Assembly: GCF_900166665.1 (NCBI RefSeq)
Contig: NZ_LT800494.1
Span: 3,740,545-3,804,544, forward strand
Source of the DNA: Cytobacillus gottheilii
GTDB lineage: Bacteria > Bacillota > Bacilli > Bacillales > Cytobacillaceae
DNA: 64,000 nucleotides
Direction: 5' to 3'
Shown: piece by piece, positions 48,617-64,000 of the stretch
Position numbering within the stretch: position 1 is the stretch's first letter
How the letters are laid out: every line of letters begins with the position of its first letter
The notes under the pieces: model-generated
What the model saw: the letters and a program-made list of their open reading frames with translations, nothing else
Told to the model about the DNA's origin: nothing
The model's database searches: none
Translations under genes and position numbers: made by a program

Positions 48617-49381
48617 TTATCTTCCCATCCAGCCGCCGTCTACAACTAATACATGACCATTTACATACTCAGATGCTTTGGATGATAAAAAGACAGCCGC
48701 TCCAGCAAGGTCATCTGCTTCTCCCCAGCGACCTGCCGGAATCCGATCTAATATGGATTTATTGCGCTGCTCATCGTTTCGGATGGCTTCTGTGTTGTTT
48801 GTTTCAATATACCCTGGTGCAATCGCATTGACTTGAACGCCTTTACCAGCCCACTCATTTGCTAGAGCCTTCGTTAATCCAACAACAGCATGCTTACTTG
48901 CTGTATAGGCTGGTACGAAAATACCGCCCTGGAAGGATAATAGAGACGCAATATTGATGATTTTTCCTGATCCTCTTTCCACCATTCCTTTTCCAATTTC
49001 CTGAGAAAGCACAAAAATGGAATTCACGTTTACGTCGATGACACGCATCCATTCTTGCTCATTGAAATCAACCGCTGGTTCACGGTAAATAACACCCGCA
49101 TTGTTGACTAAAATATCAATCTCATACTTTTCCATGATCGGTTTAAGTTTTTCCCGAATGGTTTCAACTTGGCTTAAATCGATTAAGATCGTATCATACG
49201 TTCCGCCAATTTCCTCGATCTTTTCCTGTGTTTCCTGTAAATTATCACGATGACCCAATAGCAGAACATGCGCTCCTGCCGCTGCCAATCCAACTGAAAT
49301 TGCTTGCCCAATTCCTGTTCTTGCTCCTGTTACTAATGCCGTCTTACCTTTTAATGAAAAGTAATCCAAATGAAATGCCAT
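48617..49381 (-). CDS. kduD: 2-dehydro-3-deoxy-D-gluconate 5-dehydrogenase (KduD-like SDR)
   Basis: The 254-residue SDR has TGARTGIGQAI at the cofactor loop, NNAGVIYREPAVDF, the catalytic YTASKHAVVG and the ending SEYVNGHVLVVDGGWMGR, all typical of KduD. It reduces 2,5-diketo-3-deoxygluconate (from KduI) to 2-keto-3-deoxygluconate. It is the last gene of the minus-strand uronate cluster; a dispersed repeat with hairpin follows. Confidence 0.85.
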   Translation of the reverse strand: MAFHLDYFSLKGKTALVTGARTGIGQAISVGLAAAGAHVLLLGHRDNLQETQEKIEEIGGTYDTILIDLSQVETIREKLKPIMEKYEIDILVNNAGVIYREPAVDFNEQEWMRVIDVNVNSIFVLSQEIGKGMVERGSGKIINIASLLSFQGGIFVPAYTASKHAVVGLTKALANEWAGKGVQVNAIAPGYIETNNTEAIRNDEQRNKSILDRIPAGRWGEADDLAGAAVFLSSKASEYVNGHVLVVDGGWMGR

Positions 49382-49511
49382 CCTGCATCCTCCGTTCGTT
49401 TTATAAGGGTTTTTTCATTTTCTCAACTTATTAATAGTGAAAAATGTTCATACTTTGTTTCTAAGTATCCAAGATTACTAACTTATCTGTCTTACTCTGA
49501 TAAGATTGGTG

Positions 49512-49572
49512 AAAACCTCTTCAGGGTGTTCCAGCTCAGCTGCTGAAGTCTTTATCTGAAGAGGCTTTTTCC
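49512..49572. terminator. Hairpin terminator between the two SDR genes
   Basis: CCTCTTCAG (49516-49524) pairs with CTGAAGAGG (49557-49565), with CAGCTC/GCTG-type pairing inside and T-rich flanks on both sides. It could give partial termination before kduD. Confidence 0.7.
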
Positions 49573-49603
49573 CACCATACCAAAGAAACTCTATAGTAGC
49601 GTT

Positions 49604-50359
49604 TTAACGTCCTAGCCAGCCGCCATCTACCGCTAATGTATAGCCGTGAATATAATCAGAGGCATCAGATGCTAAAAAGATTGCAGCTCCTCGCATATCC
49701 TGTCCATTTCCCCATCTTTGCGCTGGTATTCTTTCAAGAATTTGTCTGCTTCTTGTTGGGTCTTCAATTAAGGCTGTATTCATTTCTGTCGCCATATAGC
49801 CTGGAGCGATGCAATTGACATTCACTCCTTGCCCAGCCCACTCATTTGCCAGTGATTTCGTGAATTGCATGACAGCTCCTTTGCTTGCTGCATATGCGGG
49901 AACCGTTAAGCCCCCTTGAAAGGATAATAATGAAGCAATATTAATGATTTTCCCTTTTCCTCTTTCAAGCATATGCTTTCCGACTGTCTGGCACAAATAA
50001 AATACAGCATTTGCATTGATATCCATGACAAAGTCCCAATCTTCTTTTGGAAAATCGACAGCACGATGGCGTTTTTGTACGCCTGCATTATTGACTAATA
50101 TATCAATTTTGCCCATTTGATCGATAATCTGATCAATCAACGAAGCATAACCATCTACATTGCGAATATCATAGTTGATGCCTAATGCTTTAACACCTTG
50201 AAGACGGATTTCTTCTAACACTTCTTCGGTTACATTTCTGGCTACCACTACTACATCTGCACCGGCACTGGCAAGACCTAACGCCATCTCTTTCCCAAGA
50301 CCGCGATTACCGCCTGTTATTACTGCTACTTTTCCTGTTAAATCAAATAAGTTACTCAT
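49604..50359 (-). CDS. KduD/gluconate 5-dehydrogenase-like SDR
   Basis: This 251-residue SDR has TGGNRGLGKEM, NNAGVQKRHRAVDF, catalytic YAASKGAVMQ and C-terminal SDYIHGYTLAVDGGWLGR. It is clearly related to the KduD-like gene downstream, so this is a duplicated function or an enzyme for a related keto-sugar acid. Ribosome site AGAAAGGA. It lies 69 bases after the zinc dehydrogenase gene and is probably on the same transcript. Confidence 0.8.
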   Translation of the reverse strand: MSNLFDLTGKVAVITGGNRGLGKEMALGLASAGADVVVVARNVTEEVLEEIRLQGVKALGINYDIRNVDGYASLIDQIIDQMGKIDILVNNAGVQKRHRAVDFPKEDWDFVMDINANAVFYLCQTVGKHMLERGKGKIINIASLLSFQGGLTVPAYAASKGAVMQFTKSLANEWAGQGVNVNCIAPGYMATEMNTALIEDPTRSRQILERIPAQRWGNGQDMRGAAIFLASDASDYIHGYTLAVDGGWLGR

Positions 50360-50428
50360 CTTTTATTCCTTTCTAAAAGGCAAATGTTGATTCACTTTAA
50401 GCTTGTCTTCCTTTATTTCTAGAAAACG

Positions 50429-51430
50429 TTAAAAAGTATACATTACTTTTACTGCGTTTGTCCCTGTTGTCAGCAGTTCAAAGCCTTTTTCGGCTTCTTC
50501 TGGCGGAAGTACATGTGTAATCATTTTTTCGAAGCTGCTTTGTGAATGTAATAGGTCAATCGCAATCTCAAAATCTCTCGGAGTATATACACGAACAAAT
50601 TGAATGGAAAGCTCTTTAAACATTCCCTGCAGAAGGTTGACTGCAGCTGGTTTCTTATAAGCTGCAACAATGATAATATTACCTCTCACCTTTACAAGCT
50701 CTGTCAGCTGAGTCAATACAGATGGATGACCTGCGCAATCAAAAACAAAATCAGCACCTAATCCGTTTGTCTTCTCTAAAACAACACTGTTAACATCCTC
50801 ATTCAGCGGATTGACACTAACAAATCCAAGCTCTTTCGCCATGGCAAGACGGTGTTCATTCGTTTCAGCAACGATAATATCCGTTGCGCCCAAGCTTCGT
50901 AACACAAGTGCCACACATAATCCAATTGTTCCGGCACCAAATACAACTACTCGATCGCCAGGCACGTAACCGCCTTGCCGAACCGCATGAACCGCAACAG
51001 CAACTGGTTCTGCCAGAGCACCTGCTTCTAAGCTCATATCATCCGGCAAAGGAATGATGCTGTCTATTGGGGCAGCTACATATTCGGCCATTCCGCCGTC
51101 ACAATCAATGCCAATCAGCTTTAGAGACTCACACACATGAGGCTGGCCTGTTAAACAAGGACCACATTTGCCGCAGCTTAACAGAGGATTGACTGTCACT
51201 TTTGTTCCGGCTTCTAATGCAGGGTGTCCTTCAAGGACAGTTCCAGAGAATTCATGACCCATAATTAACGGAGCTGCTGCCCTCGGATGTGTTCCTGCAA
51301 AGATGTTTAAATCTGTTCCACAAATGCCTACATGGGACGTTTTAATGAGCGCCCAGCCATCTGGAAGCTTCGGCATTTCTGCTTCTTTGAAGGCTACGTG
51401 TTCCGCTCCTTCGTAAAAAATAGCTTTCAT
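50429..51430 (-). CDS. Zinc-dependent sugar/polyol alcohol dehydrogenase
   Basis: The 333-residue medium-chain dehydrogenase has catalytic zinc ligands in GICGTDLN and GHEFSGTV, the four structural-zinc cysteines (CGKCGPC...HVC near 90-105) and the Rossmann motif VFGAGTIGLC near 168. It oxidises a secondary alcohol of a sugar acid or polyol with NAD. Context in the kdu cluster suggests a uronate or aldonate substrate. GGAGGG precedes the ATG. Confidence 0.82.
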   Translation of the reverse strand: MKAIFYEGAEHVAFKEAEMPKLPDGWALIKTSHVGICGTDLNIFAGTHPRAAAPLIMGHEFSGTVLEGHPALEAGTKVTVNPLLSCGKCGPCLTGQPHVCESLKLIGIDCDGGMAEYVAAPIDSIIPLPDDMSLEAGALAEPVAVAVHAVRQGGYVPGDRVVVFGAGTIGLCVALVLRSLGATDIIVAETNEHRLAMAKELGFVSVNPLNEDVNSVVLEKTNGLGADFVFDCAGHPSVLTQLTELVKVRGNIIIVAAYKKPAAVNLLQGMFKELSIQFVRVYTPRDFEIAIDLLHSQSSFEKMITHVLPPEEAEKGFELLTTGTNAVKVMYTF

Positions 51431-51490
51431 GATAAATCCCTCCGGTGCAATAAATAAATACTTTTTTCGAATTACCGCTTTTACTGACCT

Positions 51491-51544
51491 TATAAAAACA
51501 GGTACAGTCCCGTTTCCACGCTACATGTACCTGTCTACTTTTTT
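51491..51544 (-). terminator. Terminator after dctM
   Basis: ACAGGTACA (51498-51506) pairs with TGTACCTGT (51536-51544), followed on the minus strand by TTTTATAAGG. It divides the cluster into kduI-dctM and adh-kduD parts, allowing different expression. Confidence 0.75.
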
Positions 51545-51545
51545 A

Positions 51546-52856
51546 TTAATTTCCTGTTAGGTTAAATAATTCTGGTACAAATAGAGATAGTTCCGGAATG
51601 TACGTAACAAGCAGAAGCACTAAAATCGTTACTAAGAAAAACGGCATTAATGGCCTTACTACATTCTCAATTCGCAGTCCAGCTACCTTTGTCCCCACGA
51701 ATAATACTGGTCCAACAGGCGGTGTAATGGTACCAATCGATAAGTTGAATACGATCATAATGCCAAAGTGCACAGGATCGATTCCAAAGCTTGTTGCGAT
51801 TGGCAGGAAGATCGGTGTAAAGATTAGAACTGCTGGTGTTGGATCCATGAACGTTCCAACGATTAGAAGCACCAGGTTCATGATGAGCAAAATAACAAAC
51901 ATGTTATCTGAAATGCTCAGCAATGTATCTGCAATTATGCCGGGAATATTGGTGAAAGCCATCACCCATGACATAATGGAAGAAACACCAATTAAGAAAA
52001 TAACGATAGACGTTGTTTTTGCAGAATCTAATAGAATTCCAGGCAGATCCTTAATTTTAATCGTTCTGTAAATGAAGGAAAGCAGCAGAGAGTATACAAC
52101 AGCGATTGCAGAGCCTTCTGTTGCTGTAAACACGCCTCCAATTATTCCTCCAATGACAATCACAATTAACAAAAGACTCGGAATCGCATCTAAAAAGACT
52201 TTTAATGCGACCGCAAAACTAACTTTGTCATCGCCTTTATACCCATACTTTTTAGCCAAAATGAACGCAACAACCATACAAGCCAGACCCCATAGAAGTC
52301 CCGGCACATAGCCTGCCATGAACAGAGCAGCAATCGATGTTCCACCGCTTACAAGGGAGTATACGATCAATGTATTACTTGGCGGGATTAGCATCCCTGT
52401 TGGCGCGGAAGCAATATTTACTGCCGCACTAAACTCTTGATTATATCCTTCTTTTTTCTGTAGCGGACCCATCGTCCCTCCAACTGCTGCAGCAGAAGCA
52501 ACCGCTGAACCGCTGATTGAGCCGAACATCATATTCGCTACAATATTGGTATGTGCTAAAGAACCAGGCAAACGGCCGCTCAGTACTTTAGCACAATTAA
52601 CCAGTCTCGTTGCAATTCCGCCGTTATTCATAATTACACCGGCAAGAATAAAAAACGGAATCGCAAGCAATGTAAATGAGTTCATTCCAGTAAACATTCT
52701 TTGCGCTGAGGTCAAAAGACCATTATTAAAGTCAATGATAGAGAACATCGCCAAGGCAGATGCTACTCCTACACTAATACTAATTGGTGCACCAATAATT
52801 AATAAGAATGCCACGCCAGCAAATAGTATCAGTGCCGCTTGAACAGCAATATCCAT
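51546..52856 (-). CDS. TRAP transporter large permease (DctM-like)
   Basis: The 436-residue membrane protein has about 12 helices of the DctM/ion-transporter superfamily, with IPFFILAGVIMNNGG near 65, GSISGSAVASAAAVGGTMGP near 112 and PVGPVLFVGTKVAG near 382. It imports an organic acid with sodium, together with the DctP and DctQ proteins encoded just upstream. In this setting the likely cargo is an unsaturated or keto uronate. Confidence 0.9.
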   Translation of the reverse strand: MDIAVQAALILFAGVAFLLIIGAPISISVGVASALAMFSIIDFNNGLLTSAQRMFTGMNSFTLLAIPFFILAGVIMNNGGIATRLVNCAKVLSGRLPGSLAHTNIVANMMFGSISGSAVASAAAVGGTMGPLQKKEGYNQEFSAAVNIASAPTGMLIPPSNTLIVYSLVSGGTSIAALFMAGYVPGLLWGLACMVVAFILAKKYGYKGDDKVSFAVALKVFLDAIPSLLLIVIVIGGIIGGVFTATEGSAIAVVYSLLLSFIYRTIKIKDLPGILLDSAKTTSIVIFLIGVSSIMSWVMAFTNIPGIIADTLLSISDNMFVILLIMNLVLLIVGTFMDPTPAVLIFTPIFLPIATSFGIDPVHFGIMIVFNLSIGTITPPVGPVLFVGTKVAGLRIENVVRPLMPFFLVTILVLLLVTYIPELSLFVPELFNLTGN

Positions 52857-52881
52857 ATTATCTACTTCCTTTCAGCCTTCC

Positions 52882-53364
52882 CTATTGCTCTAGTGGTTTC
52901 TTATTTTTAATAATCAGGTACATGTTATAGATGCAGTAAAAAATAATAAATAATCCGCTAAGCGGAATGGCCGCATATAAATAACCTACTGGAATTTGCA
53001 GCGCACCGGATAATTGTGTCCAAGCTAAACTTGTTGCTGCATATCCGCCTTGTACAAGAATCAGGGCTGCGAAAAGGATTACTACTAACTCGATAAACAG
53101 CTCAACACCCATTTTGATTCCGGTTGGAAATTTATCTTTTACAAATTCAATAGCCATATGTCCTCTTTCACCAAATACATAGGCAGCTCCAAACAAAACA
53201 AGCCAAACGAAGCAATATTTCGCTAATTCTTCTGAAATGACACTCGGATCGTCAAAGACGAACCGAGTGATAACTTGCCAAGTTACTAGCAATACAAGGA
53301 AAGCGAAAAGAATGATGCAGACACTTCCAAGGATTTTGTCTAAAATTGTTTTTATGAGTTTCAT
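52882..53364 (-). CDS. TRAP transporter small permease (DctQ-like)
   Basis: This 160-residue protein has four membrane helices and the DctQ landmark VTWQVITRFVFDDPSVISEELAKYCFVWLVLFGAA. It pairs with DctM. GGAGTGA precedes the ATG; it lies between dctP and dctM with short gaps. Confidence 0.9.
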   Translation of the reverse strand: MKLIKTILDKILGSVCIILFAFLVLLVTWQVITRFVFDDPSVISEELAKYCFVWLVLFGAAYVFGERGHMAIEFVKDKFPTGIKMGVELFIELVVILFAALILVQGGYAATSLAWTQLSGALQIPVGYLYAAIPLSGLFIIFYCIYNMYLIIKNKKPLEQ

Positions 53365-53380
53365 AAAATCACTCCAGCTC

Positions 53381-54418
53381 TTATTCAGCTACTTCTCTAA
53401 CTTTTTCATATAAAGCTTTTGCGCTGTCTGAGCTTAACTTTTCATCAATAACCGGTTGAACGGCATCTTGGAAAACTTTTATATCTAATTCGTTAAATTC
53501 AGCACCTGCTTCTTCAGCAGCTTTTTTCGCAGCTTCTACATCTGCATCCCAAAGCTCAACTTCACGATCTACTGCTTTTGCCAATTCTTCTTTAAAGATG
53601 TTTTGATGCTCTTCAGACATGCCGTTTAATAAATCAGTGTTAATGATCAAATAGTCAGGAATCATTAAATGCTGTGTATAAGAGTAGTATGGCGCGATTT
53701 CAACATGCTTTAAATTAGAGTAAATTAACTCGTTATTTTCTCCGCCATCAATAACGCCTGATTGAATCGCTGTGTACACTTCACCTTGACCCATTGGTGT
53801 ACCTGTTCCACCCATATTTTCCATCATCTTAATGTTTGTATCACTTTCGATTATACGGATCTTCAGTCCAGCTAAATCTTCTGGTGTGTTAATTGGCTTT
53901 TCACTGTTATAAACGTTACGGACACCGCCATGGAAACCTGCTACTACAGTCATGCCTTGGTCTTCAACTGACGTATATAAGTCACCTACAATATCCTGGT
54001 TATTTAACACAGACATTTGGTGATCTTTTGAATCAAAAACATATGGCAAGTTGAATACAACAAACTCTTCATTGAAGTTTTCCATTAAGCTTCCTGCAAC
54101 AATGGACATGCCGATTGTCCCGGATTGAACAAGCTCCATTGTTTCACGCTGTGCACCTAAAAGTTCGTTTGGATACATTTTAATTTCATATGCACCGTCT
54201 GTTAATTCTTTGAATTTCTCACCGAACTCTTCCATTGCTTTGTACTGTGGATGGTTTTCAGGCTGGTTAAAAGCTACTTTAATTTCTTGCGCTGATCCGC
54301 TTCCGCCTGATCCTCCATCTGAAGTTTCTCCTGAAGAACTAGAACCGCCGCAAGCTGCTAACATTGTTGCAAAGAAAACGGTTACAATGATAGCGAAAGT
54401 TTTAAAAGTCTTTTTCAT
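53381..54418 (-). CDS. TRAP transporter substrate-binding lipoprotein (DctP-like)
   Basis: The 345-residue extracellular binding protein has a signal peptide with lipobox LAAC (Cys at about 23), a Gly/Ser-rich linker, then the DctP fold. The signature IRIIESDTNIKMMENMGGTGTPM with the conserved Arg binds the carboxylate, and YTAIQSGVIDGGENN follows. Start at the ATG at 54418 with TAGGAG upstream. The Arg supports an acidic sugar ligand. Confidence 0.9.
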   Translation of the reverse strand: MKKTFKTFAIIVTVFFATMLAACGGSSSSGETSDGGSGGSGSAQEIKVAFNQPENHPQYKAMEEFGEKFKELTDGAYEIKMYPNELLGAQRETMELVQSGTIGMSIVAGSLMENFNEEFVVFNLPYVFDSKDHQMSVLNNQDIVGDLYTSVEDQGMTVVAGFHGGVRNVYNSEKPINTPEDLAGLKIRIIESDTNIKMMENMGGTGTPMGQGEVYTAIQSGVIDGGENNELIYSNLKHVEIAPYYSYTQHLMIPDYLIINTDLLNGMSEEHQNIFKEELAKAVDREVELWDADVEAAKKAAEEAGAEFNELDIKVFQDAVQPVIDEKLSSDSAKALYEKVREVAE

Positions 54419-54429
54419 ATCGTCCACTC

Positions 54430-55413
54430 CTACTCGTTTATAAGGTTATGAATCTCATTTATTGGGTAGTGCACATGTTCACCTTTCAAAAAACGTACTG
54501 CTTCTTCTGCTACTTTTCGTTTTAATTCCATCGCAGCTTGTTCAGAGTACCAAGCCATATGCGGAGTACATAAAAAATTCTCGTGTTTGAATAACGGCGA
54601 GTCCTCGGACAGAGGCTCTTTTTCAGCAACGTCGACAGCCGCACCAGCAATCCAACCTTCTGTAAGGGCAGTATCAAGGGCCTCTTCATTCACAATTCCA
54701 CCGCGTGATACATTTACCAGATAACCAGTTTTTTTCATTTTTCTCAGCTGTTCTTCATCTATTAAGTTATAAGCTGATTCGAGCGGACAGTGAATGGAAA
54801 CAACATCCGATTGCTCCAGCAATTCATCTAATTCCACAAGCTTCATTCCGTCTGGCAGTTTTCTAGATTGATTGTTTTTATATTTGGAATCGCATACAAT
54901 CACTGAGCAGCCAAGGGCCTGCACTTTTCGTGCAAAGGAAGTACCGATTCTGCCTAATCCAATCACTCCAACCGTTTGTTCGCTATGACGGTATATGGGA
55001 ATGCTTTTCTGATAATCCCAAATGCCGTCCCTTACCAGCTGATTCATATGCGTGATTTTTCGGGTAAGAGCGAGCATGAGTGCTAATGCATGATCGGCTA
55101 CCTCATTGGTGCCGTAATCAGGAACATTGCATACTTGAACTCCATATTTATCTGCTGCATCCAGGTCAACATTATTCACTCCAACACCATAGCGGATAAC
55201 CAGCTTCAAATCTGGCAAATTCGCCATTACTTTTTCGGTAATAGGTGCATATTGATTGAGAAAAACAGAAGCTCCCTGGCAATGAGCAATGACATCATCT
55301 TCTGTTTTACAGTCCAAGTGTTCAAAAGTGAATGATTCATTTTGAAAAATATTTGTTTCTATATCAATATTTTCATGGTCGCAATCTGTAATGATAATTC
55401 TGGGCTTTGTCAT
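54430..55413 (-). CDS. 2-hydroxyacid dehydrogenase (C-terminal-binding-protein type)
   Basis: This 327-residue NAD-dependent D-2-hydroxyacid dehydrogenase has VIGLGRIGTSFARK at the cofactor loop, the catalytic Arg in NVSRGGIV, Glu in DVAEKEPL and His in TPHMAWYSE. Related to phosphoglycerate and glyoxylate reductases. Its substrate in the uronate cluster is not known; a keto-acid intermediate is plausible. Start at the ATG at 55413 behind GAAGGAGG. Confidence 0.85.
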   Translation of the reverse strand: MTKPRIIITDCDHENIDIETNIFQNESFTFEHLDCKTEDDVIAHCQGASVFLNQYAPITEKVMANLPDLKLVIRYGVGVNNVDLDAADKYGVQVCNVPDYGTNEVADHALALMLALTRKITHMNQLVRDGIWDYQKSIPIYRHSEQTVGVIGLGRIGTSFARKVQALGCSVIVCDSKYKNNQSRKLPDGMKLVELDELLEQSDVVSIHCPLESAYNLIDEEQLRKMKKTGYLVNVSRGGIVNEEALDTALTEGWIAGAAVDVAEKEPLSEDSPLFKHENFLCTPHMAWYSEQAAMELKRKVAEEAVRFLKGEHVHYPINEIHNLINE

Positions 55414-55460
55414 GTCAGCCTCCTTCAAGCATTAAAAGTAGATTGGAAGGATTTGTGCTA

Positions 55461-56291
55461 TTAACGCAAATCCTTCATTGCTACATGATCCATATCGTCG
55501 AAATCCTGGTTTTCTCCGCACATTCCCCAGATAAAGGTATAATTGCGCGTGCCAATTCCAGAGTGAATGGACCAGCTTGGTGATAATACGGCTTGCTCGT
55601 TGCTCATGACAATATGTCTAGTTTCATGCGGCTGCCCCATTAAGTGAAATACGCGTGTGTCTTCTTCCATATTAAAATAGAAATATACTTCCATTCTGCG
55701 TTCATGTGTATGAGAAGGCATTGTGTTCCAGCCGCTTCCTTCCTCAAGAACGGTCATACCCATACTTAATTGGCAGGATTCCAGCACATCTGGATGAATG
55801 AACTGATGAATGGTTCTCTTATTCATAGAAGAATCTTCACCAAGCGGACGTGCGATCGCTTTCTCTAAATCTACTTTTACAGTTGGATATGTCTTATGTG
55901 CTGGACATGAATTGATATAGAACTTTGCAGGCTGATTTGCATCATTTGATTGAAATACAACCTCTTTTGTTCCTCTTCCAATATAGATTCCTTCTCTGTT
56001 GTTGATCGGATATTCTTGGCCGTCTAAGACAATTTTTCCGTCTCCGCCAATATTGATAACGCCCATTTCACGTCGCTCAAGGAAATACTCAGCCGCCAGT
56101 TCTTTTCCAGCGTCTAATGTCAGCGCTTTCTCTACTGGCATTGCTCCTCCATAAATAATGCGATCCACATGGCTGTATGCTAACTCAATTTCATTTTCTT
56201 TAAATACAGTTTCCATAAGAAATTCATTACGAAGTTTTTCAGTTGTATAGTGTTTGACATCATCTGGATGGTGAGCATAATGAATTTTCAT
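55461..56291 (-). CDS. kduI: 5-dehydro-4-deoxy-D-glucuronate isomerase KduI
   Basis: The 276-residue cupin isomerase converts 5-keto-4-deoxyuronate, released from unsaturated glycosaminoglycan or pectin fragments, to 2,5-diketo-3-deoxygluconate. It has the [15 protein letters not shown] start, [10 protein letters not shown], and the metal-binding [16 protein letters not shown] with MGQPHETRH. First gene of the minus-strand cluster and divergent from the IclR gene. GAGGGGGA precedes the ATG. Confidence 0.95.
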
Positions 56292-56328
56292 TTTTAAAAA
56301 TTCCCCCTCTGAAATACTAAATCGATTT

Positions 56329-56342
56329 CGTAAGCGATATCA
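56329..56342 (-). promoter_or_regulatory. Catabolite-responsive element (CcpA) candidate
   Basis: CGTAAGCGATATCA fits the cre consensus at 13 of 14 positions (first base C for T). It lies downstream of the kduI promoter, where bound CcpA would block transcription. Confidence 0.5.
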
Positions 56343-56419
56343 TTTTCTTTAAAACTACCTGTACAAATCTTCTTACGTTTTAAGGTGTTCCACAATATAG
56401 AATCATGTTCTATAATTTC

Positions 56420-56447
56420 ATTATAAATGATATTTGATGAATTTCAA
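56420..56447 (-). promoter_or_regulatory. Predicted sigma-A promoter of the kdu operon
   Basis: On the minus strand TTGAAA (56447-56442) and TATAAT (56425-56420) have a 16-base spacer. The leader to kduI would be about 120 bases. Confidence 0.55.
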
Positions 56448-56629
56448 TAAAAAAGTTTTCTTTTAAGTCAAAAAAATGAAAGGGGATACAAGATTATTTT
56501 TCCATAGTTTACAAACCTATTTGATTTTACTATGATTAATGTGTCAACCTGCCGTGAATATCAAAACTAAAAAAGTTATCTAGATATGATCTTTGATCTG
56601 TCTTCGTTCGTTAACGATGGAGGGAAATT

Positions 56630-57391
56630 ATGGCGAATGTACAATCACTGGAACGCGCTCTTACCTTGCTGAATGTTTTATCCGAATATCCAAACGGAAT
56701 TCAAATCACACGTTTATCTGAACAAGTCGGTCTTTCAAAAAGCACGGTTCACCGACTTCTATCAACTCTAATCGACATGAATTATGTGATTAAAGATGTC
56801 GAGACAGATAAATATAAAATTGGATACCAAGTTATTTATATATCAAGAAATGTTTTAAATAATATTGACCTGATTCCTATATCAAAGCCTTTTCTCAAAA
56901 AACTCTCTTCTGATGTAAATGAAACGATCCATTTATGCATGGAGGATAAAGGTGAAGTCGTCTATATTGATAAAATTGAAAGCAATCAGACGATTCGCAT
57001 GTACTCTCGAATTGGGAGCAGAGCACCGATGTATTGCACGGGTGTTGGAAAGGTTTTGCTCTCTGGTAAAAATGAGTTGCAGTTTGAGGAAGTTGCAGCA
57101 AAGACGGATTTTATTACCAGGACAGAAAATACGATCCGCTCCCGCGAGGAGTTAAAACGCGAAGTGGAAACAATCAGAGGTCAGGGCTATGCATTAGATA
57201 ATATTGAAAACGAAGAAGGCATTCGCTGTATTGCCGCTCCGATTTATGATTATACGGGTAAAATTATAGCAAGCTTCAGCATTTCGGGACCAAGCAGCCG
57301 GATTACAATGGAACGAATTAACGAGGAACTTAAGCACAAAATACAAGAAACATCGATGAATATTTCAAAACAGCTTGGTTACCGGATCTAA
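56630..57391 (+). CDS. IclR-family transcriptional regulator (KdgR-like)
   Basis: The 253-residue regulator has an N-terminal winged helix-turn-helix (SLERALTLLNVLSEYPNGIQITRLSEQVGLSKSTVHRLLSTL) and a C-terminal effector domain (about 75-250, with RSREELKREVETIRGQGYALDNIENEEGIRCIAAPI). In this family a uronate breakdown product often releases the repressor. Divergent position opposite kduI makes it the likely cluster regulator. Confidence 0.9.
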   Translation: MANVQSLERALTLLNVLSEYPNGIQITRLSEQVGLSKSTVHRLLSTLIDMNYVIKDVETDKYKIGYQVIYISRNVLNNIDLIPISKPFLKKLSSDVNETIHLCMEDKGEVVYIDKIESNQTIRMYSRIGSRAPMYCTGVGKVLLSGKNELQFEEVAAKTDFITRTENTIRSREELKREVETIRGQGYALDNIENEEGIRCIAAPIYDYTGKIIASFSISGPSSRITMERINEELKHKIQETSMNISKQLGYRI

Positions 57392-57455: not shown

Positions 57456-57619
57456 TTTTGAAATAGAATCTACGCCGTCAAGCTTCACCGTAGCTAAGCA
57501 TAACAGCTGATCTCACACTTCACCATCAGAGATCCTTGGGCTGGAAGGTTATGTCTTGTTCTTATATTTGCATTAATAGGTGAGTTCTAGATCATTGTTT
57601 CCTATGATGGAAGCTATGG

Positions 57620-58090
57620 ACTATTGTGTTTGTTTCTCCTGTTTTCACGACTCCTTTTTCCAGATACTAGGCTTTTGTGTCTCCTTTTTTCTGTTTTTAC
57701 GACTTTTTTCCATTTACTGGACTTTTGTGTCTCGTTTCTTCTGTTTTCACAACATTATTTTCCAGTTATTAGACTTTCATGTCTTGTTTTTTCTGTTTTC
57801 ACGATACTGTTTTCCAGTTATTGGACTTTTGTGTCTCGTTTCTTCTGTTTTCACGACACTGTTTTCCAGTTATTGGACTTTCGTGTCTCGTTTCTCCTGT
57901 TTCCACGACTCTTTTTTCCAGTTACTGGACTTTCGTGTCTCGTTTCTCTCGTTTTCGCGACACTGTTTTCCATTTACTGGACTTTCGTGTCTCGTTTCTC
58001 TCTTTTTTACGACTGTATTTTCCATTTATTGAATTACCACATCTTCTTTATCCTTTTTTCACGACACTGTTGTCCAGTTACTATTTAAGC
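57620..58090. repeat. Tandem array B: about 9 units of 52 bp
   Basis: Units starting TTTTCACGAC recur at about 57645, 57693, 57743, 57795, 57847, 57899, 57951, 58003 and 58055; most steps are 52 bases. A unit reads CACGACACTG, then TTTTCCAGTTA(C/T)TGGAC, then TTTCGTGTCTCGTTTCT. TCCAGTTACTGGA is palindromic, and CGACAC can pair with GTGTC-TCG further on. Because 52 is not divisible by three, open frames appear in all three frames; none is a credible gene. Confidence 0.92.
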
Positions 58091-59489: not shown

Positions 59490-59522
59490 AGAGGCATCTA
59501 CGCTTGTAGATGCCTCTTTTAT
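59490..59522. terminator. Bidirectional terminator
   Basis: GAGGCATCTAC pairs with GTAGATGCCTC around GCTT, with T and A runs. It separates the LLM gene (+) from the sulfatase operon (-). Confidence 0.88.
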
Positions 59523-59526
59523 CCTC

Positions 59527-60480
59527 TTAAACATCAGCTGCACAGCGGAATCCTACATTGCCTGAAGAGCTGTCTTCTGTATTCGAACTCCGGGCTGCCA
59601 CTCTGTAGCGATTACAGTATGAATCATGACATAAATAGGAACCGCCTCGCATTGTTCTTGGTGATTCTGGCATCTGCATATTGGTGTTAGAATCATCTTT
59701 TTTAGAACGATCAAACCAATTTGCACACCATTCCCAGACGTTTCCTGCCATATTGTGCAAACCATATCCATTTGCCGGAAAAGCATGAACAGGTGCTGTT
59801 CCTAAATAGCCATCTTCTTCTGTATTTTTCACCGGAAACTGACCTTGCCAAATATTGCAGTAATGCTCACCATTTGGCTGTAAGGTATCTCCCCATGGAT
59901 ACCTCTTCTGAACAAGCCCGCCTCTTGCGGCAAATTCCCACTCTTCTTCTGTCAGCAGTCTTTTTCCAGCCCACTTGCAATAAGCCTGAGCGTCATTCCA
60001 GGAAACATGCACAACAGGATGATCCATTCGGTCTTCAATTGAAGAATTAGGACCTTCTGGATGCTGCCAATTGGCTCCATGTACAACACGCCACCATGGG
60101 GTTTGTACCGGTGCCTGTGTGACTTTGGCAGCTGTTTCCTCAGATATTAGCAGATGAAAAACAAAAGACCAGCCGAATTTGTCGGCATCTGTCTGATAGT
60201 TTGTCGAGTTAATAAATTCTTGAAACTCGCGGTTTGTGACGGTATATGGATCAATATAAAAAGGAGCAACCTTTACTTCCCGGATCGGTCCTTCCTTGTC
60301 AAACGGATTGGCGTCATCATCCTCCGTTCCCATTAAAAAGGTGCCGCCTTCAAGGTAAACCATATTCTCTCTATCCTCCGGCTTCAATTGCGTCTCAAAA
60401 TTTTGTTCATTTTCTAAAACAGTATTATTCACAGAAATAGACGATCTGGATGCTGAACAGCAGCTTTTCTGGTTGTCCAT
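59527..60480 (-). CDS. Formylglycine-generating enzyme (sulfatase activator)
   Basis: The 317-residue FGE (SUMF1 family) converts the active-site Cys of sulfatases to formylglycine using oxygen and copper. It has MVYLEGGTFLMGTED, HPVVHVSWNDAQAYCKWAGKRLLTEEEWEFAARGG and the C-terminal RGGSYLCHDSYCNRYR with both catalytic cysteines (about 284 and 289, five apart as in the human enzyme). The first ~35 residues are variable and start with a CC pair (SCCSAS). No signal peptide, so it acts in the cytoplasm on its neighbour, the Cys-type sulfatase. Confidence 0.93.
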   Translation of the reverse strand: MDNQKSCCSASRSSISVNNTVLENEQNFETQLKPEDRENMVYLEGGTFLMGTEDDDANPFDKEGPIREVKVAPFYIDPYTVTNREFQEFINSTNYQTDADKFGWSFVFHLLISEETAAKVTQAPVQTPWWRVVHGANWQHPEGPNSSIEDRMDHPVVHVSWNDAQAYCKWAGKRLLTEEEWEFAARGGLVQKRYPWGDTLQPNGEHYCNIWQGQFPVKNTEEDGYLGTAPVHAFPANGYGLHNMAGNVWEWCANWFDRSKKDDSNTNMQMPESPRTMRGGSYLCHDSYCNRYRVAARSSNTEDSSSGNVGFRCAADV

Positions 60481-60553
60481 TGGATCACTCCTTTAGTAAA
60501 TCTCACACTTATCATTTTCCCATTCGGGCAGGAGTTTTACAAAATTTCAGCAC

Positions 60554-61291
60554 TCAATAATAGAGTGGCATTTTATTTTCATACTTATTAATTTTATTAG
60601 TAAACCTTAATGTAGTCAGGTGTGGTCGCGTAATGGCACTTCCAACCACGACTGCATAGGCACCCAAATATAAACTTTCGATCGCCTCTTCAGGTGTATT
60701 AATTTTCCCTTCCATTAGCACGAGTCCTTTTCCCTCACATGCACGTACAATTTTAGCCAGCATTTCAAAGTCAGGACTATCAATTGACTTCGGGTTATCA
60801 TTGAATCGATACAGAGTTGGAGCCACCATATGAGCCCCTTGCTCTAGTGCGGTGACAGCTTCTTGTTCATTGCGGATATCAGCTAAAATGATGGTTTCAG
60901 GATATTTTTGTTTGATTTTTTCAATTAGGAGATATGCTTTTTCACCATCTGCATTGATTCGGTCTGTTGCATCAATCGCCACAATATCGGCACCTGCGCT
61001 TATAACTTCATCAACAGCTTCCATGTTTGGAGTGATAAAAACAGAACTATTCTCTGAATGCTGCTTCCACAGACCAATTATAGGAAGGTCTGTGATTTGA
61101 CGGACCTCGCTGATTTGTTCCGGAGTATTAAGACGAAGGCCTGCTGCTCCTCCCCATATCGCAGACTTAGCCATCCCGGTAATAATGCCTGGCATATACA
61201 TTGGGTCGTCCTTTTTTGCCTGACATGAAACAATAAGACCATTTTTTAATTGCTGGATCATTTTCTGCTGTTTCTCATTATAAGATTGCAT
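60554..61291 (-). CDS. nanE: N-acetylmannosamine-6-phosphate 2-epimerase NanE
   Basis: The 245-residue TIM-barrel epimerase interconverts ManNAc-6-P and GlcNAc-6-P. The LKNGLIVSCQAKKDDPMY, GIITGMAKSAIWGGAAGLRLN, LPIIGLWK and ILADIRNEQEA segments are diagnostic, with the catalytic Lys in the LWK region and Glu in VLMEGKINTPEEA. Start at the ATG at 61291 with GAGGAGG upstream; the longer frame to 61321 has no advantage. In this operon it may act on a product of the PTS and sulfatase. Confidence 0.92.
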   Translation of the reverse strand: MQSYNEKQQKMIQQLKNGLIVSCQAKKDDPMYMPGIITGMAKSAIWGGAAGLRLNTPEQISEVRQITDLPIIGLWKQHSENSSVFITPNMEAVDEVISAGADIVAIDATDRINADGEKAYLLIEKIKQKYPETIILADIRNEQEAVTALEQGAHMVAPTLYRFNDNPKSIDSPDFEMLAKIVRACEGKGLVLMEGKINTPEEAIESLYLGAYAVVVGSAITRPHLTTLRFTNKINKYENKMPLYY

Positions 61292-61373
61292 TAGACCATT
61301 ACCTCCTCTATTTAGATACATAATGGAAAAATCCCGCTTACTCAGAAGAATAAGCGAGAGTTACCCAGCACTT

Positions 61374-61850
61374 TTATTTTGTTAGTTCAATAATCTTTTC
61401 CTGCTGTGCTTCTACTTTTTCATTTGGATTGTTTACTTTGCAGGCTTCCCCGCTTGTAAAAATCATAATAATATCTGTTGAAGGAACAAGATCTTTAATT
61501 GAATCAAAATCGACCGTTAATAATAGGTCACCTTGCTTCACTTTTTGTCCATCTTGGATATGAGAAGTGAATCCTTTTCCCTCTAAATTTACGGTATCCA
61601 CACCAACATGAATAAGAATCTCTTTTCCATCCTCTGTCTTTAATCCTACCGCATGATTTGTTTTAAAAACAAAATCAACCACAGCATCTACAGGAGAGAA
61701 TACTTGCGAAGCACTCGGTGCAATAGCAAAGCCATCACCCATGATTTTTTGTGAAAAAGTTTCATCGTTTACTTGTTCAATCGATTTAATCGTCCCTGCA
61801 GCAGGGCTAACAAAACCATCTTTTTTCTTTTTATTAAAAAGTCCAAACAT
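61374..61850 (-). CDS. PTS glucose-type EIIA component
   Basis: The 158-residue cytosolic phosphocarrier of the glucose superfamily reads VSPAAGTIKSIEQVNDETFSQKIMGDGFAIAPS, and ILIHVGVDTVNLEGKGF carries the phosphorylated His (about 90). It passes phosphate from HPr to the EIIB domain at the end of this window. Start at the ATG at 61850 with GGTGAG upstream; the GTG at 61859 is an alternative. It overlaps the sulfatase stop region. Confidence 0.9.
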   Translation of the reverse strand: MFGLFNKKKKDGFVSPAAGTIKSIEQVNDETFSQKIMGDGFAIAPSASQVFSPVDAVVDFVFKTNHAVGLKTEDGKEILIHVGVDTVNLEGKGFTSHIQDGQKVKQGDLLLTVDFDSIKDLVPSTDIIMIFTSGEACKVNNPNEKVEAQQEKIIELTK

Positions 61851-61851
61851 G

Positions 61852-63234
61852 TTACTCACCAGCCTTTAAATAATCATTAGGATCTTTCGAGCTAGGGTTA
61901 TACGTTTCAGCACGGTTAACCTTCCAGCCTTCTTTTGTTTTAAAATGACCAGATAGAATCGGATCATTTGTTTCAACTTGATGTTCATGCAGTTTCTGGC
62001 GCATTTCTTCAAGCGTTGTTGCGTATCGCTCATCACCGGCCAAATTATTTCTTTCGCCTGGATCGTATAATAAATCATATAATCCTTCATGAGGCTTAAC
62101 AGCTTCTTCTAAACCATTTTCATGAAATAATGTTTTCGTTGGTGAATTGTCAATATTTGTACGGTTAATTTTCAAATAGTTTTCATCATAATATTTAATA
62201 TACTTATACCTTTTCGTGCGGATGCTTCTCGCAGGCTCATAGGACGTGTGATAGTTGATTTCAGCAAAGATCTCGTCTCTCACCTCATGATCCATCACTT
62301 TAAACATCTCTGCAAAAGAAACACCCTGCAGATAAGATGGCTTTTCAATCTCCAGCAATTCACATAATGTAGGGAAGATATCTACCTGCGATACAAGACC
62401 TTCTACTTCCTCACCAATCATATTGCTTCCAGGAACACGCATGATCAATGAAACACCAATTCCAGTATCATAAAGCGTACATTTGCCGAATGGGAAAGCT
62501 AAACCATGGTCCGTCGTGAAAATAATAATGGAATTGTCATATAACCCTTCTTCTTTTAAGGCATCAATCACGATTTTGAATGATTCGTTTGCCCAAGTAG
62601 CAGAGTTAAGGTATCCAGCGTAGTCTTCACGAATTCTCTTATCATCCGACATTGGGTATGGAGGCATTACATACTTTGGATCAAACTCCGGATAATCCTC
62701 GTGTGCTTCTTCAGGAAATTTGCGATGTGTCGCAAACATTCCATAAGATAAAAAGAAAGGCTGATCCTTATCTGTCTGCTGCAGCCAGTCACGAACTTGA
62801 TTTGCGTTTTCATAATCCCACTTCACAAGCTCCTGTTCAGTTAGACCAGAATTATCAGCCGTAATATCCTGGTCATATCCAATCATTTTTGCCCCATTTT
62901 TATGATCTGTATAGCTGCCAGCCTCATGCTGAATACCACATAGCACAGTATGATAATCTTGCTTCTTTAAGAAATTTACTAAATGCTGATTATAATCATG
63001 AAGCTGGAATCCACGCTGAGACAATCCATACATCCCGTTGCTATGCGGGTACATTCCAGTCAGAAGTCCTGACCGGCTTGGTGAACAAGTTGGCCCTACA
63101 CAATAGGCCTGTCTAAAAATGGTTGCTTCTTCCGCAAACTGCTGCAGTGCAGGAGTCGGAACATCATAACCATATGGACTAAGAACTTTTCCGCTATCAT
63201 GAGTGTGTATATAGATTACATTCTTTTTCATCAT
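61852..63234 (-). CDS. Cys-type sulfatase resembling heparan N-sulfatase (sulfamidase)
   Basis: This 460-residue alkaline phosphatase-fold sulfatase has the modification motif TCSPSRSGLLTG, whose Cys50 would become formylglycine, and the second segment SNGMYGLSQRGFQLHDYN, a pattern close to human SGSH. The metal-binding aspartates are in IHTHDSG and FTTDHGLAF. It has no signal peptide, so it works in the cytoplasm; most characterised sulfatases are exported. Substrate is inferred as an N- or O-sulfated amino sugar delivered by the adjacent PTS. Confidence 0.88.
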   Translation of the reverse strand: MMKKNVIYIHTHDSGKVLSPYGYDVPTPALQQFAEEATIFRQAYCVGPTCSPSRSGLLTGMYPHSNGMYGLSQRGFQLHDYNQHLVNFLKKQDYHTVLCGIQHEAGSYTDHKNGAKMIGYDQDITADNSGLTEQELVKWDYENANQVRDWLQQTDKDQPFFLSYGMFATHRKFPEEAHEDYPEFDPKYVMPPYPMSDDKRIREDYAGYLNSATWANESFKIVIDALKEEGLYDNSIIIFTTDHGLAFPFGKCTLYDTGIGVSLIMRVPGSNMIGEEVEGLVSQVDIFPTLCELLEIEKPSYLQGVSFAEMFKVMDHEVRDEIFAEINYHTSYEPARSIRTKRYKYIKYYDENYLKINRTNIDNSPTKTLFHENGLEEAVKPHEGLYDLLYDPGERNNLAGDERYATTLEEMRQKLHEHQVETNDPILSGHFKTKEGWKVNRAETYNPSSKDPNDYLKAGE

Positions 63235-63294
63235 AAAACTCCTTTTAAGATAATGGCAAAGGCCCTATCAAAAATCGATAGAGCACTTCCCCTA

Positions 63295-64000
63295 TTACAA
63301 ATGTTTAATATTATTTTGTTCGATATAATCATCTACTTCACCGCGGATAATATTTACCTTTGGTCCATAGATTACTTGGATCGCCTTACCTCTGACAACT
63401 GTGTTCATGGCGCCAGTCTGCTTTAATGCCTTTGCATCAATCTTATCTGGCTTCACCACAGTTACTCTTAACCTTGTTGCGCAGTTATCAATTTCAGTAA
63501 TGTTATCAAAACCGCCAAGCCCTTCAATGATTAATTTGGCTTTGCCGTCTTCAGCTACAACTACATGACCTTGTTCTTCTTCTGTCACCTCGTCATCGTC
63601 ACGGCCAGGTGTTTTTGCATTTAGCTTAATTATCAAGAACTTAAAGACAAAATAGTAAACCGCTATAACCGGAATGGCTAAAAGAATAACCCAAAGGTAA
63701 TTCGTTTTATCGTTGCCTTGGAATACTCCGAATAGGAGGAATTCAACTAGTCCTGCTGAGAAAGTTGAACCAATTGTAATATTGGCAATGCTCGCTACGA
63801 CAAAACTTAGAGCAAACAGAATTGCTTCTGCTGCGAAAAGAAGTGGTGAAGCGAATAATAGAGCGAATGAAATTGGCTCTGTAACACCTGTAACAAATGC
63901 TGTTAAACCTACGGATAATAAGAAACCAGCTGTTGCTTTTCTTTTTGGTCCTTTAGGAATTGCATGATACATGGCAAGAACAATACCAATCATTCCGAAC
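63295..64000 (-). CDS. PTS EIIBC component, glucose/N-acetylglucosamine type (5' end outside window)
   Basis: Only the C-terminal 235 or so residues are in the window. They comprise the last EIIC helices (VTGVTEPISFALLFASPLLF is the conserved segment), a linker, and an EIIB domain with IDNCATRLRVTV, whose Cys is phosphorylated. It transports and phosphorylates a hexose or amino sugar. The frame is open to base 64000, so the gene continues beyond the window. It is first of the visible sulfatase operon. Confidence 0.9.
   Translation of the reverse strand, partial: FGMIGIVLAMYHAIPKGPKRKATAGFLLSVGLTAFVTGVTEPISFALLFASPLLFAAEAILFALSFVVASIANITIGSTFSAGLVEFLLFGVFQGNDKTNYLWVILLAIPVIAVYYFVFKFLIIKLNAKTPGRDDDEVTEEEQGHVVVAEDGKAKLIIEGLGGFDNITEIDNCATRLRVTVVKPDKIDAKALKQTGAMNTVVRGKAIQVIYGPKVNIIRGEVDDYIEQNNIKHL

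Follow-up and report, generated by a model that had tools for sequence, protein, structure and literature searches.

A sulfatase operon of Cytobacillus gottheilii that combines a phosphotransferase system with a divergent NanE epimerase

At the end of a 64,000-nucleotide stretch of Cytobacillus gottheilii DNA (the window; RefSeq assembly GCF_900166665.1, contig NZ_LT800494.1, positions 3,740,545 to 3,804,544 of the forward strand), an operon encodes a phosphotransferase system (PTS; EIIBC and EIIA), an S1-type sulfatase, a NanE of the amino-sugar-phosphate 2-epimerase family and a formylglycine-generating enzyme (FGE). An earlier note, made from the sequence alone, had described these five genes as running in one direction, with TCSPSRSG and SNGMYGL in the sulfatase; all were found on the minus strand, and Pfam and NCBIfam matches back every name (Sulfatase and SGSH_C, NanE/PRK01130, FGE-sulfatase, PTS_EIIA_1, PTS_EIIC and PTS_EIIB). 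We propose that the operon serves to break down a sulfated monosaccharide, with a C2-sulfated 6-phosphate common to the sulfatase and NanE, a reading to which we give a probability of about one half. The operon is rare and of Bacillus type, and the loop variant of its NanE looks to be a new element.

NanE had been singled out as the member that did not simply fit a desulfation route, and the operon NanE indeed proved divergent. In Staphylococcus aureus NanE, the active site comprises Gln11, Arg40, Lys63, Asp124, Glu180 and Arg208, and Tyr149 lies next to the methyl group of the acetamide (PMC8482478; this and the other sources with PMC numbers are represented here by portions of their text, to which statements about them apply). 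All six polar residues are kept in the operon NanE (Gln23, Arg52, Lys75, Asp137, Glu193 and Arg221), and it is the loop of Tyr149 that has changed, reading TLYRFN in six sulfatase-linked genomes and TLSRFD in genome G953, with Gly replaced by Arg, Tyr by Phe, and Thr by Asn or Asp. TL[YS]RF was present in all seven linked genomes and in none of the 36 other aligned NanEs, which all read TLxGYT. The alignment started from 52 loci, of which six were dropped (no match at E ≤ 1e-20); the remaining 46 and the window gave 11 rows of the linked type (six genomes, with duplicates) and the 36 others, and the loop of Shouchella tritolerans was taken from a separate alignment. The 36 comparison NanEs are those at the examined loci, seven of them second NanEs of linked genomes, and further NanE matches exist in the family. 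The window genome itself has no NanE match besides the operon NanE.

A sister group of NanEs at 45-47% identity (G106, G139 and G144) shares Trp74, Lys195 and His223 with the operon enzyme and keeps GYT; judged from reading frames, its neighbours are a mannose-type PTS and SIS-like proteins, and no sulfatase match was found there. Since this sister clade keeps GYT without a sulfatase, the presence of the loop arginine follows that of the sulfatase rather than membership of the wider clade. Going by sequence, the loop change would fit an anionic C2 substituent on the NanE substrate (the structure model of NanE has a mean per-residue confidence score (pLDDT) of 82 and is based on seven sequences). 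The set of GntR, SIS-like protein, mannose-type PTS, NanE and SIS-like protein was seen at L121, L122, L123 and L124, in three genomes of the window's family with two copies in G106, and appears to constitute a second PTS-linked NanE group, its members being named from frames.

The distribution of the sulfatase was compared with that of NanE using a threshold of E ≤ 1e-40, each sulfatase count including the window genome. The sulfatase was found in 7/193 genomes of the window's family (four at 70% identity or more, three at 34-36%), in 6/398 genomes of a class sample and in 9/398 of a phylum sample. The four family genomes with a close sulfatase (at least 70%), the window's among them, are exactly the four with a close NanE (at least 74%), although any NanE match at E ≤ 1e-40 occurs in 85/193. 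In the phylum sample, NanE matches at E ≤ 1e-60 were confined to two of the 398 genomes (the window genome and G953), both of which carry the sulfatase, and the variant NanE is present in seven of the eight genomes with an aligned sulfatase at least 51% identical, the exception being G777. A contig search returned four sulfatase loci (C. gottheilii, 96%; S. tritolerans, 84%; S. clausii, 83%; a metagenome-assembled genome of Pirellulaceae, 23%). Elsewhere, the sulfatase was found in 2/61 genomes of the genus of G117, and no close one turned up at E ≤ 1e-90 in the families of G953 (1/13) and G777 (1/28) beyond those two genomes. A plasmid search yielded 20 records (H1-H20) with a top identity of 39% and no close sulfatase; judging by genus names, 15 of the 20, at 31-39% identity, are haloarchaeal.

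Comparison of 21 neighbourhoods recovered the order GntR-EIIBC-sulfatase-EIIA-NanE-FGE at six loci (window, C. gottheilii, S. tritolerans, S. clausii, G117 and G120), and its recurrence in five further genomes argues that the arrangement is not due to chance. In G117 and G120, both of the window's family, NanE and FGE are separated by one or two additional genes, including one for a radical SAM/SPASM protein that is probably an anaerobic sulfatase-maturating enzyme. A PTS was recognised at 12 of the 21 loci. Among these are G777, where a 52% sulfatase relative adjoins a mannose-family PTS, and the distant loci L035, L036, L037 and L039 (sulfatase 32-36%), each with a PTS EII (in three cases an EIIBC at 49-50%); at the other nine no PTS was recognised, most neighbours having been compared only with the proteins of the operon. 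Between the window and S. clausii, operon proteins are 75-90% identical, as against 54% for nagA and 56% for nagB, which together with the patchy distribution points to probable spread of the operon between species by horizontal transfer. Two further loci were recorded: at L045, a 48% sulfatase relative lies beside a sigma-54 activator, a SIS protein, a KDPG-type aldolase and a phosphotriesterase-family protein, possibly another sulfated-sugar route, and in G953 the gene next to the variant NanE encodes a protein of 513 aa that weakly matches DUF3604 (L090:271-1809).

The sulfatase is predicted to be cytoplasmic. In its AlphaFold model (mean pLDDT 86), residues 5-11 already belong to the first core strand, which leaves no room for a signal peptide, as had been noted previously, and rules out an exported enzyme. 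Foldseek placed chains of human SGSH (sulfamidase) at ranks 1-8 (query-normalised template modelling (TM) scores of 0.79-0.81), followed by the lambda-carrageenan sulfatase S1_8A (0.72-0.74), and the SGSH_C domain scored 72 bits (cut-off 29.3). Among proteins of solved structure, the closest in sequence were S1_8A (2.6e-33), S1_11-type enzymes and SGSH (3.1e-29), and a 19-sequence profile gave 245 bits to S1_8A, 223 to an exo-L-galactose-6-sulfatase of S1_11 type and 209 to SGSH. When the SGSH residues named in PMC4014121 were mapped through the profile alignment, seven of 11 were kept (Asp32, Cys70, Arg74, His125, His181, Asp273 and His368 correspond to Asp13, Cys50, Arg54, His103, His170, Asp242 and His329). 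Members of S1_8 cut C2 sulfate that is either N- or O-linked, from galactose 2-sulfate, xylose 2-sulfate or N-sulfoglucosamine (GlcNS) (PMC12549532). A choline or aryl sulfatase, the grouping named beforehand as the outcome that would speak against a sulfamidase-like enzyme, was rejected (111 and 134 bits against NCBIfam cut-offs of 433 and 481; nearest fold SGSH). A search for 6-phosphate-binding residues was likewise set aside: only K156 and K172 are basic in 8/8 close PTS-linked and 0/4 close unlinked sequences, and among distant PTS-linked ones this held for 1/4 at K156 and 0/4 at K172, a weak signal.

From the observed gene content, gene order, co-occurrence, cytoplasmic start and aligned active-site residues, we infer the substrate, the order of steps and the specificity of NanE as follows. 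EIIBC and EIIA would import the sulfated sugar and phosphorylate it at C6, as their PTS family suggests and as had been proposed. FGE, in which the two catalytic cysteines reported previously are present, would convert Cys50 of the sulfatase to formylglycine, and the sulfatase would remove sulfate from the sugar 6-phosphate inside the cell. This sulfate would most likely sit on C2, as N-sulfate or 2-O-sulfate, because characterised S1_8 relatives act there. The variant NanE would interconvert the C2 epimers of a hexose(amine) 6-phosphate with an anionic C2 substituent, probably before desulfation, so that either epimer could feed the sulfatase. More specifically, and tentatively, NanE may be a 2-epimerase of N-sulfo (or 2-O-sulfo) sugar 6-phosphates whose loop arginine, Arg161 in the window enzyme, binds the sulfate, with the route passing through a C2-sulfated hexose or hexosamine 6-phosphate. 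An N-sulfated substrate would yield glucosamine 6-phosphate (GlcN-6-P) for NagB, and a 2-O-sulfated one a hexose 6-phosphate. The exit into amino-sugar-phosphate metabolism that had been envisaged is supported by the presence of nagA and nagB in the genome, adjacent to each other and away from the operon (C4:276435-278292), and in all seven genomes tested. The freed sulfate would be exported or reused, and sulfate-handling genes nearby count for the route: a SulP-type sulfate permease with a STAS domain lies between the radical SAM protein and FGE in the G117 operon (L033:13275-14996), and TauE family proteins adjoin the S. clausii, G120 and G362 loci.

Several observations weigh against a C2-sulfated 6-phosphate shared by the two enzymes. 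The operon NanE scores 241.6 bits against the cut-off of 189 of the ordinary NanE subfamily model PRK01130, and its loop change could be drift. The G953 locus reads EIIBC-EIIA-sulfatase-radical SAM protein with NanE on a separate 3.4 kb contig, and G777 gave zero NanE matches despite its 52% sulfatase, hence NanE is not obligatory. On the side of the sulfatase, the S1_11-type galactose-6-sulfatase outscores SGSH by sequence (223 vs 209 bits) and reaches TM scores of up to 0.72 against the model. Four of the 11 SGSH site residues are changed (Asp31 to His12, Lys123 to Ile101, Asn274 to His243 and Arg282 to Lys251), so that homology is no guide to C2 or N specificity. Finally, caution over a 6-phosphorylated substrate is warranted because O6 sulfation inhibits the S1_8 GlcNS sulfatase of P. 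heparinus (PMC10154612).

The same residues bear on a simpler scheme that we consider unlikely, in which GlcNS enters through the PTS as GlcNS-6-phosphate, a true N-sulfatase supplies NagB with GlcN-6-P, and NanE represents a side activity or a passenger with normal activity on N-acetylmannosamine 6-phosphate (ManNAc-6-P). Human sulfamidase provides the best fold matches, the SGSH_C score is well above its cut-off, His329 aligns with the substrate-contacting His368, nagB is present, and the nearby unsaturated-uronate cluster described below is what heparin disaccharide use would lead one to expect. However, the resemblance to sulfamidase put forward in the earlier note holds for the overall fold and not for all active-site residues: of nine conserved SGSH site residues (Arg282 and His368 not counted) six are kept, the metal site has His12 and His243 for Asp31 and Asn274, and Ile101 stands for Lys123. 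His12, His243 and Lys251 are invariant in 19/19 aligned sequences, and position 101 is hydrophobic throughout. Arg282 has been tied to N-sulfate binding (Sidhu et al. 2014, PMC4014121), and its replacement by Lys251, the O-sulfatase state, therefore speaks against a classical N-sulfatase. With S1_8 also including 2-O-sulfatases, the claim of N-sulfatase activity specifically is not supported. The variant NanE in seven of eight genomes with a sulfatase of at least 51% identity (G777 lacking it), together with the specific loop change, also makes a passenger unlikely.

Conversely, an ordinary NanE would be accommodated if the substrate were an N-acetylhexosamine O-sulfated at C3 or C4 (e.g., a sulfated ManNAc), the sulfatase giving ManNAc-6-P, NanE converting it to N-acetylglucosamine 6-phosphate, and NagA and NagB completing the route. 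The six retained catalytic and substrate residues, the subfamily score of NanE, the O-sulfatase state of Lys251 and the presence of nagA and nagB agree with this; nevertheless, all aligned NanEs of the linked type have a changed acetamide-contacting loop, C2 is the position attacked by S1_8 relatives, and we know of no common natural sulfated ManNAc, which leaves this scheme improbable as well. Far less probable is the import of a sulfated disaccharide (e.g., an unsaturated heparin disaccharide) through the PTS, followed by desulfation inside the cell and cleavage by a hydrolase whose gene lies outside the operon. Entry of hyaluronan disaccharides through a PTS has been described, as has a chondroitin sulfate operon that contains both a sulfatase and PTS genes (PMC9067506), and a KduI/KduD cluster lies nearby, but no glycoside hydrolase or lyase is found among the operon genes of the six same-order loci (a search that did not extend to the whole genome), and of these loci only those of the window genome and C. 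gottheilii had a recognisable uronate cluster next to the operon. Overall, we favour the C2-sulfated 6-phosphate as the shared intermediate.

Among known systems, the closest is a pneumococcal accessory island described in 2012 (SPH1922-SPH1930; McAllister et al., PMC3283741; Bidossi et al., PMC3302838), which comprises a PTS, a sulfatase, a modifying factor, a TauE exporter, a regulator and a TIM barrel with NanE among its HHpred hits; it was inactive on 4-methylumbelliferyl sulfate and its substrate was left open (PMC3283741). The island resembles the operon in its PTS, sulfatase, modifying factor and NanE-like barrel, by description and not by sequence comparison, and differs in having a Lac family PTS, a ROK/MarR-type regulator and a barrel named as ComA-family phospho-3-sulfolactate synthase or phosphonomutase-like, not NanE. 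In a literature search for the exact gene set or for sulfated sugar phosphate intermediates, which mostly did not cover subscription papers, this island was the only one among the matches listed to combine a PTS, a sulfatase and a NanE-like protein. The earlier view that no pathway with exactly this gene set had been described thus stands for the exact set in the literature searched, and has to be qualified by the similar island; the general PTS-sulfatase idea is already published, and the exact gene set and the NanE loop appear to be new.

Of the individual proteins compared, human SGSH (4MHX/4MIV) is like the operon sulfatase in fold, SGSH_C domain, CSPSR and the equivalents of His125, His181, Asp273 and His368, and unlike it in its signal peptide and in the four residues discussed above; a 6-phosphorylated substrate would also be expected only for the operon enzyme. 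S1_8A, a galactose-2-sulfate sulfatase acting on the monosaccharide (PMC12549532), is the best sequence match and has the Asp-His metal pair and Lys at the position of SGSH Arg282; in contrast, it is exported (cloned without its predicted signal peptide), belongs to a marine polysaccharide pathway and has no equivalents of His103 and His329. The GlcNS sulfatase Phep_2826 of P. heparinus is likened by description only. The sialic acid NanEs of S. aureus and C. perfringens belong to the same family and have all six residues listed in PMC8482478, whereas the operon NanE has the TL[YS]RF[ND] loop and a sulfatase neighbour, with no sialic acid gene among the operon genes. The chondroitin sulfate operon of Proteus vulgaris likewise joins a putative sulfatase to putative PTS genes, but includes lyases and an unsaturated glucuronyl hydrolase and follows a disaccharide route, and the portions of PMC9067506 drawn on make no mention of NanE or FGE.

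Table 1. Features of the operon and its surroundings in window coordinates (for the stems, window position = L007 + 54455).
Feature	Position	Strand	Remarks
PTS EIIBC, glucose superfamily, C-terminal part	63295..64000	minus	PTS_EIIC + PTS_EIIB; runs on to 64872 past the window end, 525 aa in total
S1-type sulfatase, S1_8/SGSH-like, predicted cytoplasmic, 460 aa	61852..63234	minus	Cys50 in CSPSR (TCSPSRSG); SNGMYGL segment
PTS EIIA, glucose type, 158 aa	61374..61850	minus	ATG 1 nt past the sulfatase stop
Terminator-like stem between EIIA and NanE	61332..61359 (L007 6904-6877)	minus	12 pairs, then TTTTT; consensus scan only
Divergent NanE, amino-sugar-phosphate 2-epimerase family, 245 aa	60554..61291	minus	Retains the catalytic residues; loop reads TLYRFN, not TLxGYT
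Formylglycine-generating enzyme (FGE), 317 aa	59527..60480	minus	Cys284/Cys289 in CHDSYC
Stem 3' of the FGE gene, possible operon end	59490..59517 (L007 5062-5035)	minus	12 pairs; scan rule satisfied on both strands; T tail poor on minus strand
Unsaturated-uronate cluster	48617..57391		KduD (two copies), Zn-dehydrogenase, TRAP transporter, 2-hydroxyacid dehydrogenase, KduI; KdgR-like IclR on opposite strand; context, outside the operon

From EIIBC to FGE, the genes are separated by 60, 1, 82 and 73 nt (Table 1), and a GntR/UTRA regulator gene precedes EIIBC outside the window. The earlier note had also pointed past position 64,000 for nagA/nagB or more sulfatases; frame inspection revealed none nearby, and the genes upstream of the regulator appear unrelated, judged from reading frames only. 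Five further Sulfatase-family matches in the window genome are frames of 619-676 aa, which by their length we take to be LtaS-type. The transporter has the EIIC, the EIIB with its phospho-Cys (Cys464) and the separate EIIA of the PTS glucose superfamily, and its closest solved chains are glucose-specific EIICB. Its sugar specificity could not be assigned from family models, as the GlcB, MalX and Nag models all stayed under their cut-offs (GlcB, the top NCBIfam model, 462 bits against 591.8). FGE scored 385 bits to 6s07, in addition to its family match.

Consensus scans found a promoter-like site upstream of EIIBC matching at 11/12 positions, with promoter-like sites overall not above chance (16 vs 24.5 expected), and an excess over chance of terminator-like sites (14 vs 5.0 expected); the stem between EIIA and NanE may allow attenuation. 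TGTATTRACA occurs upstream of EIIBC at six of eight loci (absent in G953 and G777) and is no more than suggestive of an operator, given that four of the six loci represent two closely related pairs and that the same sequences served to choose the motif.

Between the FGE gene and the uronate cluster, which starts 2.1 kb away, lie two frames (333 and 97 aa) and a tandem repeat; the cluster presumably covers the uronate branch of glycosaminoglycan or pectin degradation. KduI scored 460 bits against a cut-off of 250 and both KduD proteins exceed a curated KduD cut-off, while the KdgR-like regulator falls under that of its model. Within the flanks examined for six loci, the cluster adjoins the operon in the window genome and C. 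gottheilii alone, and it lends weak support to a heparin-type source. The tandem array (57617-58083; 52-base unit, about eight copies, 81% matches) separates the KdgR-like gene from the following gene, and similar-looking repeat frames were seen by eye at L091:459-761 and L021:15133-15561.

If the proposed route is correct, Gram-positive bacteria would possess a PTS-coupled route by which sulfated monosaccharides are desulfated in the cytoplasm; the heparin pathways of Bacteroidetes use periplasmic sulfatases (PMC10154612). It would also explain the role of NanE in such a gene set, since desulfation and epimerisation at one carbon would enable one module to use both gluco- and manno-configured C2-sulfated sugars. 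With its transporter, sulfatase, activator and epimerase, the operon would offer a compact system for testing the substrate of a PTS-linked sulfatase, a question that the 2012 work on the pneumococcal island did not settle.

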